Below are positions 3,331-58,700 of a stretch of 64,000 nucleotides of DNA, in pieces. Position numbers and translations under genes: made by a program. Position 1 is the first letter of the stretch. Each line of letters opens with the position of its first letter. The notes beneath the pieces are model-generated. The model did not search any database, had not been told where the DNA came from, and saw nothing but the letters and a program-made list of their open reading frames with translations. This DNA comes from Furfurilactobacillus milii (GTDB lineage: Bacteria > Bacillota > Bacilli > Lactobacillales > Lactobacillaceae), in NCBI RefSeq assembly GCF_009863985.1, contig NZ_WEZT01000012.1, positions 1 through 64,000 of the forward strand, written 5' to 3'.

Positions 3331-4344
3331 TCATTTAGAAAGAACGTTAAATGCCTTCAACGTCAATGATTCGGCCACATTTTGAAAACTAACGTTGCGT
3401 TCGAGCAACTGCTTTGATTGTAACCCTAAATCTGTAACGTCGACGAGTTGCTTTTTAGAATAACGCGTCGTTAATTCCTGTAAATCCTTGCGATGACTCG
3501 GAAAACTCATGACAAATTTTTCCTGATCAATATTTTCTAATAGCATGTCACGAAAGCCAGCCAAAATAATATCTAAAACAATTCGCTGATGCGGACGATC
3601 CTTTGCCAATGGCACAAGTGTCGTTCCCACAGTAACAAACGCACTCATATCAGGCTTCAATAGTTGACTTTCCCACTGCCATACAGCAGCCGCAGTTTGA
3701 CCAAGCCAGTCATCGACTAACCACTCAGCCGCTTGATCCGGACTATTAGTCAGCCGGCTGGTCAACGCTAATAAGTGCTTTCCAACACCGGCTGATTCGA
3801 GCTGGGACTGAAGTTCATTGACTGCTAATGGTTGCATCTCCATTTCCTGAGTCCGTGAAATGACAGTCGGTAAAAGCAAATTGGGATTGGTCGTCAGCAA
3901 CAAGGCCGTAATGTTACCGCTGGGCTCTTCAAGAAACTTTAGCAAACTGTTGGCTGCGCTGGCAGTCATCGTTTCAGCTCCGGCAATAATGAAGACTTTT
4001 TTATTGCCTTCCATCCCACTTTTGGAAAACTCAGATTTCAGCAAACGAACTTGGTCAACTTTAATGGAGTTCCCTTCTGGTTCAACAATCAATACATCCG
4101 GGTGCTCACGTTGACTAATTCGCTGGCATTCCTCACATTTGCCACAAGGCTGACCATCTTGCAGGTTAATACAAAAAAGGCGCATCGCAATCCACATTGC
4201 GAGCTCCTCCTTGCCACTGCCGTTTGGTCCGGCAAATAAGTACGCATGGGCCAGTTCATTTTTTTTAATTACATTTTTAAAATGCTGAACCAGCACAGGT
4301 TGGCGCTGTTCAGCAATCGTTAAAACATCGTTATTTGTTGGCAT
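3331..4344 (-). CDS. holB: DNA polymerase III delta' subunit
   Basis: The delta' subunit is the stator of the clamp loader, working with the DnaX and delta subunits to load the beta clamp. The 337-residue protein has an AAA+ fold with AYLFAGPNGSGKEELA at the P-loop position, a zinc module (CGKCEECQR preceded by a Cys), and the LLKFLEEPSGN and SRTQEM segments typical of DnaX/HolB proteins. The start is preceded by GAGGAAAT. It is followed by yabA after four bases and preceded by the c-di-AMP receptor gene, the classic tmk-darA-holB-yabA order. Confidence 0.95.
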   Translation of the reverse strand: MPTNNDVLTIAEQRQPVLVQHFKNVIKKNELAHAYLFAGPNGSGKEELAMWIAMRLFCINLQDGQPCGKCEECQRISQREHPDVLIVEPEGNSIKVDQVRLLKSEFSKSGMEGNKKVFIIAGAETMTASAANSLLKFLEEPSGNITALLLTTNPNLLLPTVISRTQEMEMQPLAVNELQSQLESAGVGKHLLALTSRLTNSPDQAAEWLVDDWLGQTAAAVWQWESQLLKPDMSAFVTVGTTLVPLAKDRPHQRIVLDIILAGFRDMLLENIDQEKFVMSFPSHRKDLQELTTRYSKKQLVDVTDLGLQSKQLLERNVSFQNVAESLTLKAFNVLSK

Positions 4345-9916: not shown

Positions 9917-9933
9917 CGTTAATTTCAATAAAA

Positions 9934-10013
9934 CATGAAGCACAAACCGTCGCGGACTTAGTGCTGCTACCTTCCGGTCCTGACACAATTCGTGAGGACG
10001 GCCTTGCCTCATG
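9934..10013 (-). ncRNA. ffs: Small signal recognition particle RNA (4.5S-like)
   Basis: The minus strand contains GTCAGGACCGGAAGGTAGCA, the near-invariant SRP RNA apical domain with its GGAA tetraloop, which binds Ffh. Flanking sequences pair to extend the hairpin: CATGAGGCAAGGCCGTC at the 5' side with GACGGTTTGTGCTTCATG at the 3' side. The core is about 80 nt and the mature RNA may extend a few bases further at each end. Its place between tadA and dnaX is the usual one in Firmicutes. Confidence 0.95.
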
Positions 10014-10072
10014 GCCTTTCGGCAATTAATAATACTACGCTATTTACGTCATAAAAGCTAGTGTTTTGCTTG

Positions 10073-20840: not shown

Positions 20841-20866
20841 GTTTTACACCTCCATGATTGATTTTT

Positions 20867-20997
20867 TACCTAAAAAAATCCCGTTGTCCTAAGACAACGG
20901 GTTCAAAGTCATTCATCACGAATTGCTTTGCCTCGGCAGGATATTAAGATAGCTGGATTAACAACCGTCACCTGAGTCTTAGGTAAAATTAATTTAC
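20867..20997 (-). promoter_or_regulatory. Ribosomal protein L10 leader
   Basis: The minus-strand leader of rplJ contains the CCTGCCGAGGCAAAG-type segment and a terminal hairpin CCCGTTGTC/GACAACGGG followed by ATTTTTTT. This matches the layout of the L10 leader of Firmicutes, in which the L10/L12 complex binds the RNA and favours the terminator. The start fits the promoter at 21004-21032. Confidence 0.88.
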
Positions 20998-21003
20998 TTA
21001 AAC

Positions 21004-27226: not shown

Positions 27227-27335
27227 GGTAACGCTCCCCTTCTCGAAAGATCAAGTTATAGTGATTTTACCATAGTTTAGGCTATTAACGCGATTACCAT
27301 AATTCACCGTGGCTAGCGTTTAATCTGTCCGTTCC

Positions 27336-27504
27336 GCTGACTGGAGACGCCGTTCCTTGGGGATCGGTCTCAGCCTTCTGAAAGTCGAAGTCTTCTACCT
27401 CGATTATGAGCTGAAAACCGCATCTCATAACTCGTCCCACACCACTAAATGGCCAACCCCATGCCATTAAGTGGTGTCGACACGGAACTATGTCTCCAGT
27501 CAGC
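27336..27504 (+). repeat. Structured module A1 (plus orientation)
   Basis: A 169-nt module closed by a perfect 13-bp stem (GCTGACTGGAGAC with GTCTCCAGTCAGC). Inside are GTTCC/GGAAC pairing, a TTATGAG/CTCATAA hairpin, and a 15-bp hairpin (ACACCACT...AGTGGTGT) with a single A.A mismatch. It is one of six related modules in the window. Confidence 0.85.
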
Positions 27505-27609
27505 TTCACTCATATAACTCTATCATATCAGCACTCATTTCAAAGCTATGCGAACCATCCGAATAAACCACCGCATTCTGGTAATAACCATGAATATTAG
27601 CCGGAGGGC

Positions 27610-27776
27610 GTCAACAGTGGAACCAAGCCGTGAAAGTGGTGTTAATTCGAACGCTTTTCTCGAATTTACAGCACGAACTGGCGTCAAGACTCGGGGTTCC
27701 ACGAGGCTTAACGGCGAGGTGAAAGACGGTGTGCTTCCGGCTTGAACCGGTCCCACGGCGGCGTTCCACTGTTGAC
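27610..27776 (-). repeat. Structured module B1 (minus orientation)
   Basis: A 167-nt module closed by a perfect 14-bp stem (GTCAACAGTGGAAC with GTTCCACTGTTGAC). Read on the minus strand it has the A-module order: GCCGTGGGACCGGTTCAA, a small hairpin (GTTAAG...CTTGAC plus CTCG/CGAG), a long hairpin with an A.A mismatch, then CACGGC closing the inner stem. It lies 105 bases from A1 and faces it. Confidence 0.85.
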
Positions 27777-27851
27777 AACCGTAGGCGAAAGAAAGCACAA
27801 AAAATGCCACCATACGGCAAATTGCACGCATGATGACATATAAGTGGTGAA

Positions 27852-53910: not shown

Positions 53911-54113
53911 CGATTCTCTCCCCCGTTTCACAGAATGTCAATCCATCATAACAGATTGCTTCTATAAATAGATAATTATTTCAATAATGGTGCTAAATTT
54001 CGTTATTGCCGATCTTTCTGCAAAGAAAAACATCCCAGTCCTTATCGACTAGGATGTTAACCATTGATTCAGCAATAACAAAAACTTTGCGACTAATGGA
54101 TTCATGACGTTAC

Positions 54114-54282
54114 GATGACCAGAAACGCCGTTCCATGAGGACCGGATTCAATCCGCACAATTCGCGTTTTTCATCCTTGATTATGAGCCGAAGTTCACGT
54201 CTCATAAGTCATCCCGCAACACTAAGCGGCCAAAATGCCGGCCGCCAAGTGTTGCCGACACGGAACTTTGTTTCCAGCCATC
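54114..54282 (+). repeat. Structured module A2 (plus orientation)
   Basis: A 169-nt module with the same order as A1: closing stem (GATGACCAGAAAC with GTTTCCAGCCATC, three mismatches), GCCGTTCC/GGAAC, TTATGAG/CTCATAA, and the long hairpin GCAACACT...AGTGTTGC. The hairpin stem differs from A1 and A3 by paired changes. Confidence 0.85.
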
Positions 54283-54358
54283 TCCACTTTTGCCATAATT
54301 TGTCAGTCATTGGCAAATGCCTCCACTGACCATCATCACGCTATATCAGCTGGAGAGC

Positions 54359-54525
54359 GTCAACAGTGATACCGAGTCGTGAAGGTGCTGTTAATTCGAG
54401 TGGTCCTATCGAATTTACAGCACGGACGGTCGCAGAGACTCAGCTTTTACGAGGCTCTGCGGCGAGGTGAAAGACCGTGAACTTCGGGCTTGAACCGGTC
54501 CCACGACGAGCGTGTCACTGTTGAC
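54359..54525 (-). repeat. Structured module B2 (minus orientation)
   Basis: A 167-nt module closed by GTCAACAGTG/CACTGTTGAC. Its inner stem is GTCGTG/CACGAC where B1 and B3 have GCCGTG/CACGGC, a compensatory change. The small hairpin is GCAGAG/CTCTGC and the long one GTGCTGT/ACAGCAC. It lies 76 bases from A2 and faces it. Confidence 0.85.
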
Positions 54526-54559
54526 AACCGCAAGCGTTATCTACCATTACAGTTAAAAT

Positions 54560-57902: not shown

Positions 57903-58090
57903 CTGGTTTGCCCCCGTTTTTTGGCCGTTATTACGCGACCATTCTCATCAATAAACTCAAAAATTGTACTAAATATTATAGCGCATTTTCACAGTTGGTG
58001 ACAAATTCTACTCACCATTCGAGTCATAAAACATCTAATTTCTAGCAAACCTGTATTACATCTGATTACAAATCCGCTTACTGCCGTTAC

Positions 58091-58255
58091 GCTGATCTGA
58101 AACGCCGTTCCCTGGGACCAGGTTCAACTCGCACAAACCGCGATTTTCACCTTTGATTATGAGCCGAAAAACATGTCTCATAAGTCATCCTGTAACACTA
58201 AACGGCCCACCCCGCCGCTAAGTGTTACCGACACGGAACTCTGTTTCCAATCAGC
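58091..58255 (+). repeat. Structured module A3 (plus orientation)
   Basis: A 165-nt module: closing stem GCTGATCTGAAAC with GTTTCCAATCAGC, GCCGTTCC/GGAAC, TTATGAG/CTCATAA, and the long hairpin GTAACACT...AGTGTTAC with the conserved A.A mismatch. The 188 bases between it and the helD start hold nothing recognisable. Confidence 0.85.
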
Positions 58256-58284
58256 TCCACTCCCGCAGTACCTACAGTAGCTAG

Positions 58285-58374: not shown

Positions 58375-58394
58375 CACTCTGTCAGCTGGAGGGT

Positions 58395-58563
58395 GTCAAC
58401 AGTGATACCGAGCCGTGAAAGTGGTGTTAATTCGGGACGATTTAACCGAATTTACACCACGGACGGTCGCAAAGACTCCGATTTTCAGGAGGCTTGGCGG
58501 CGAGGTGAAAGACCGTGAACTTCGGGCTTGAACCGGTCCCACGGCGAGCGTGTCACTGCTGAC
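58395..58563 (-). repeat. Structured module B3 (minus orientation)
   Basis: A 169-nt module closed by GTCAACAGTG/CACTGCTGAC (one mismatch). Inner stem GCCGTG/CACGGC, small hairpin CTCC/GGAG, and long hairpin GTGGTGT/ACACCAC, where B1 and B2 have GTGCTGT in this arm. It lies 139 bases from A3 and faces it. The bases from 58564 to 58700 are the leader of the DedA gene and show nothing else. Confidence 0.85.
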
Positions 58564-58700
58564 AACCGGAGGCAAAATTGCCATTGCACTATTTTCAATC
58601 ACACTTTGCCTTAACTCATAAGTTTTCTCAAAGCTGAATGATTAGTTTCGCTATTCATCGTTCAGTTGCTTACACTGTAGGTAAAAATGGGAGGTCGCCT

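Follow-up and report, generated by a model that had tools for sequence, protein, structure and literature searches.

Three gaps between genes in the window, the whole 64,000-nt stretch of Furfurilactobacillus DNA analyzed here, each contain two large palindromic modules, A and B, that face each other. This raises the question of what kind of unit the A-B pair is. A preliminary description of the locus offered three readings: two converging RNAs, a two-site protein-binding array, or a non-autonomous element whose ends are the modules. The units in the window are as follows.

27328 to 27517, plus strand: unit 1 module A, a four-helix cloverleaf palindrome with feet CCGTTCCG ... GCTTCACTCATATA
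27518 to 27593, no strand: unit 1 spacer; the units do not share a conserved spacer
27594 to 27789, minus strand: unit 1 module B, a cloverleaf palindrome with feet CGCCTACGGTTG ... CTCCGGCTAATAT
54105 to 54290, plus strand: unit 2 module A, mostly deleted in F. rossiae
54343 to 54538, minus strand: unit 2 module B; over the module F. rossiae and F. milii are identical, while their spacers differ
58082 to 58263, plus strand: unit 3 module A
58379 to 58578, minus strand: unit 3 module B

Homology, orientation and distribution of the modules

The profile cores of A (plus strand) and B (minus strand) are located at 27343-27494 and 27599-27781, 54119-54272 and 54348-54530, and 58097-58245 and 58384-58568, respectively. 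In all three gaps a plus-oriented A is followed by a minus-oriented B, and the core-to-core gaps of 104, 75 and 138 nt agree with the 76-139 bases given in the preliminary description. The units lie between ORFs and are overlapped by short ORFs only. Iterated profile searches placed A and B in separate classes. However, each profile matches the other class with E values down to about 1e-20, which indicates that A and B are homologous. They share a common cloverleaf and a mean identity of 48%, and the earlier proposal that they are diverged members of one fold is borne out. In the tree, the A and B clades have supports of 1.0 and 0.89, respectively, and each contains members from both Furfurilactobacillus and Lactiplantibacillus. 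The two-class arrangement is therefore older than the split between these genera. In L. daoliensis, each classified pair is composed of one A and one B, and the alignment covers the whole unit along with its spacer. This conservation of the spacer indicates that the pair is a single unit, as had been suggested.

A covariance model built from 28 modules identified about 126 modules in the window genome at a cut-off of E below 1e-4. Pairing by distance gave 41 adjacent pairs, every one plus-then-minus, and 44 solitary modules. The same facing orientation is observed in 110 of 110 two-module groups in four Furfurilactobacillus species, in all 44 pairs in L. daoliensis (G172) and in 12 of 12 pairs in G020, which belongs to another genus. 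Random orientation is expected to produce facing modules in about a quarter of pairs, and the observed orientation is far beyond chance. The modules had been described as always occurring in facing pairs. The facing part of this statement is exact, and it holds for adjacent pairs in the related genomes as well. The pairing is not universal: solitary modules occupy 44 of 85 sites in the window genome and 53 of 97 in L. daoliensis. The A-B spacing ranges from 39 to 321 nt in Furfurilactobacillus; most of the 44 L. daoliensis pairs have a gap of 70-74 nt.

The Furfurilactobacillus relatives compared include F. rossiae DSM 15814 (G004), F. milii FUA3430 (G005) and strain C5 (G002). Module numbers are comparable in four species, G001 contains diverged copies, and no modules were found in the relative G003. 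Across the Lactobacillaceae, matches are found in 24 of 151 genomes and 9 of 40 genera, with at least about 145 modules each in G020 and L. daoliensis, for which no more than 150 candidates were scored. Further matching loci are found in Lactiplantibacillus pingfangensis, Companilactobacillus and an uncultured Lactobacillus, where every two-module locus is facing. No module match was found in phage sequences. We found no published account of a paired cloverleaf element in the open literature, and the family does not appear to have been annotated or described before.

Plasmids of Pediococcus damnosus (NZ_CP012291.1 10967-11168; L053:6001-6202) and Loigolactobacillus backii carry a common solitary B module. 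It is 82% identical to the query B and adjoins a MerR regulator and an SMR efflux gene; the hosts are beer-associated. This module was probably acquired by horizontal transfer from a Furfurilactobacillus.

Genomic sites and element ends

The B module mostly starts a short distance past a stop codon and points the same way as the gene. It is located on the G-rich strand by 64 to 15, and this is also the case at most convergent sites, where the genes set no direction. Convergent gaps are overrepresented (18/47 module-bearing compared to 11% of other gaps of at least 150 nt; odds ratio 4.9, p=2.6e-4). In the window genome (G000), the replication terminus lies near 225-250 kb of contig C45, judging by GC skew. 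The region of this contig from 154.9 to 436.5 kb, about 280 kb, is module-free, where about 15 modules are expected at mean density. In L. daoliensis, the sign of the GC skew changes at 20-40 kb of the 275-kb contig C4, which has one weak match. This avoidance of the terminus in two genera was recognized post hoc and might be due to gene content.

The ends of the element are seen in L. daoliensis. The intact element is about 510-570 bp long and contains the A-B pair inside. A 14-bp terminal inverted repeat, CTAAAGGTTG[AC]AAG, is found at each end, and similarity beyond the modules halts at CTAAAGGTTGAAAG ... CTTTCAACCTTTAG. With one mismatch allowed, the end repeat occurs 83 times in this genome, compared to 3 times for the reversed pattern. 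An AT-rich target duplication of 8 bp, with 7-8 of the 8 bases identical, flanks 13 of the 26 two-ended elements (TTTCTCAT, CAGAAAAA, TTGTTTAG and TTTTTTAA are examples); 0.99 is expected, and the maximum in 1000 shuffles was 5. L. pingfangensis has the same ends. These features support the non-autonomous element among the earlier readings, with one correction: the modules are not its ends, as the inverted repeats lie outside them. Elements with one module (334-456 bp) have the same ends, several of them with duplications, so solitary modules may come from transposition as well as loss. ORFs beside 11 unpaired end repeats were read by eye, and no transposase-like gene was noticed among them. 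At G172:C1:343902-344140 (L381, L409), the 14-bp repeats bound a 239-bp element that lacks a module and shows no clear duplication.

In G020 and Furfurilactobacillus, likeness is limited to the modules. Around the Furfurilactobacillus units we found no ends of the L. daoliensis type, no other inverted repeats with target duplications and no recurrent k-mers. Nearly all module sites are common to the four species, indicating little recent movement in this genus, and no clean insertion polymorphism was found there. Units are absent from the unit 2 and unit 3 sites in G001 and G003. Empty sites in Furfurilactobacillus do not provide evidence of insertion; the single readable case is a deletion, and the rest are not clean. 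Several modules that are solitary in one species are pairs in another, and some solitary modules thus arose by partner loss. F. rossiae has lost most of the unit 2 A module and, at another site, a solitary B by deletion between 8-bp direct repeats GGCGGCAA. The simplest reading is an older amplification, after which ends and spacers decayed and the modules were retained.

Two further observations concern individual sites. The differences between the unit 2 A module (54105-54290) and its F. milii FUA3430 counterpart are located mainly in the first half, with a large part of the second half almost unchanged, a pattern that suggests recombination between dispersed modules. In G003, which has no modules, unrelated large nested palindromes that share a core in opposite orientation occupy the corresponding gap between gltX and cysS, where a unit lies in the window genome (L246:2860-2965 and 3367-3515). 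They belong to another palindrome family.

Fold and conservation of the modules

RNAalifold predicted a single plan for B, for A and for both jointly, in which a long closing stem encloses three hairpins. As RNA, both modules beat all 200 shuffles, with z-scores of -6.6 and -8.9 for the two; folded as DNA, the two have z-scores of -4.2 and -8.3. Among 138 distinct modules, 94.8% of cells are paired, 29 of 31 pairs have double-sided changes, and none of 500 shuffles was as good. The stem sequences run through all four Watson-Crick pairs with pairing kept. Rfam covariance models gave no match over the window units at gathering or relaxed thresholds (E 5), and no credible match in the relatives. 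Elsewhere in the window, an ordinary L10 leader (20864-21001) and a small SRP RNA (9924-10020) are located on the minus strand.

The types of base pairs in the helices are informative on whether the fold acts as RNA or DNA. In the module helices, G-U occupies 53 of 4157 cells (1.3%) and A-C 93 of 4157 (2.2%). In the ribosomal L10 leader of 31 Lactobacillaceae, a control aligned and folded in the same way, the values are 52 of 558 (9.3%) and 4 of 558 (0.7%), respectively. G-T is about equal to A-C in the L. daoliensis and G020 modules, with no G-U excess. When orthologous modules from two species are compared, single changes yield 23 G-T and 23 A-C combinations. G-U tolerance in helices, expected of structured RNA in general, is absent from the modules. 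An RNA fold should favor G-U, whereas a DNA fold, or a fold kept by a DNA process, should not, and in this respect the modules are unlike RNA. Because the covariation is Watson-Crick only and G-U is not favored, the constraint looks like DNA folding. We infer from these sequence comparisons that the fold acts as DNA and not through an RNA copy.

Conservation was compared at orthologous sites between the window genome and F. milii FUA3430. Identity is 93.8% in the modules (1.8% gaps), 83.0% in the spacers (11.2% gaps) and 92.7% in the near flanks, which include coding sequence (4.3% gaps). Within the window genome, no similarity was detectable between the spacer of one unit and that of another. 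The feet, located outside the stem, are conserved. Those of B start with CGCTTNCGGTTG and end with CTCCAGCTNAYATA; those of A start with CCGTTACG and end with GCTCCACT, followed by an AT-rich stretch. In Companilactobacillus, nearly the same feet are found on quite different stems. Inversion of the spacer between two facing sites was also considered and rejected, as the spacers of different species line up in one orientation.

Proposed explanation and comparison with known systems

The unit is likely an old member of a Lactobacillaceae MITE family, the modules of which are kept as a folded DNA pair. A DDE-type transposase acting in trans would have cut and pasted the element via its end repeats. 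The Furfurilactobacillus units would descend from elements with ends like those in L. daoliensis, the relative from which their mobility is deduced. Insertions 3' of genes may have been tolerated best. The modules are proposed to act as folded DNA, either in single strands exposed by replication or as an extruded cruciform. The preserved features would be the Watson-Crick complementarity, the conserved feet and the junction bases, and a structure-recognizing protein, from the element or the host, probably acts on the facing A-B pair. Solitary modules may derive partly from pairs by deletion, and some one-module elements may also have transposed. More tentatively, the A-B pair could be a transposon-delivered DNA-structural element with a four-way junction, selected at about 100 sites per genome in several Lactobacillaceae genera, at gene ends and outside the terminus, and read by a structure-specific protein.

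The modules might instead be neutral relics, in which template-switch correction of quasi-palindromes keeps complementarity without function. Such template switching is a documented process (PMC8794818) and would yield Watson-Crick-only covariation, and the 14 double changes between orthologues are consistent with it. However, single mismatches between orthologous modules exceed the double changes, 73 to 14. Unpaired module positions differ at 9.1% compared to 17% for spacers. In addition, conservation of feet and junction bases extends across genera, and facing A-B pairs persist despite the divergence of A and B. We therefore regard this explanation as unlikely.

The converging RNAs of the preliminary description are disfavored by the intolerance of the helices to G-U pairs. 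Strong single-strand folding and strong covariation would suit a pair of structured RNAs with converging transcription, or a single 3' UTR element, as would the location of B more often than not on the sense strand just past stop codons. However, G-U is rarer than A-C in the modules, opposite to the L10 leader, and it is not in excess in the two other genera. Equal numbers of G-T and A-C changes between orthologues and the lack of an Rfam family match also argue against a fold acting as RNA, which we consider improbable. A double-stranded array in which a sequence-specific protein binds A and B as its two sites, also suggested earlier, is very doubtful: the orientation and paired arrangement are conserved and the terminus avoidance recalls chromosome-organizing sites, but a protein reading the linear duplex does not require stems that vary freely while complementarity stays, and the modules of Furfurilactobacillus pairs are anywhere between 39 and 321 nt apart.

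The preferred reading, a MITE family with modules kept as folded DNA, concerns an element spread through the family, with module counts above 100 per genome in three genera. It is among the cleaner cases of covariation pointing to folded DNA and not to RNA, and cautions against relying solely on covariation in the search for RNA motifs. Two possibilities become testable: that the host took over a transposon-borne DNA fold, or that template switching by itself can maintain a complex fold across genus-level divergence.

Several known systems share features with the A-B pair. Integron attC sites are conserved in structure rather than sequence, in folded single-stranded DNA, and form direct arrays accompanied by an integrase and cassettes. 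The modules are likewise conserved in structure rather than sequence. Unlike attC sites, they face each other in pairs, and we saw no cassette array.

The arrangement resembles that of a giant REP/BIME. As in REP/BIME-RAYT systems (PMC3733652), palindromic units with conserved feet are opposed, and are located 3' of genes and between convergent genes. However, REP units are hairpins of 20-40 bp (PMC3733652), whereas the modules measure 150-190 nt and form a four-way junction. The GTAG or CGTC tag on 20-40 bp palindromes was not found, and the feet are CGCTTNCGG / CTCCAGCT. A RAYT (Y1) transposase (PF01797) is absent from the window genome, with controls positive. In L. daoliensis, moreover, the modules sit within an element that has end repeats and target duplications. 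Since unit size, tag and Y1 transposase do not correspond, we classify the element as a MITE variant and not as a REP.

Similar to bacterial MITEs, the element is short, intergenic and high in copy number, with no coding capacity, and it has inverted repeats at both ends in L. daoliensis and L. pingfangensis and a fixed-length 8-bp target duplication, the latter seen in L. daoliensis only. It differs from them in carrying two large covarying cloverleaf palindromes in a fixed facing order, which are conserved after the ends have eroded.
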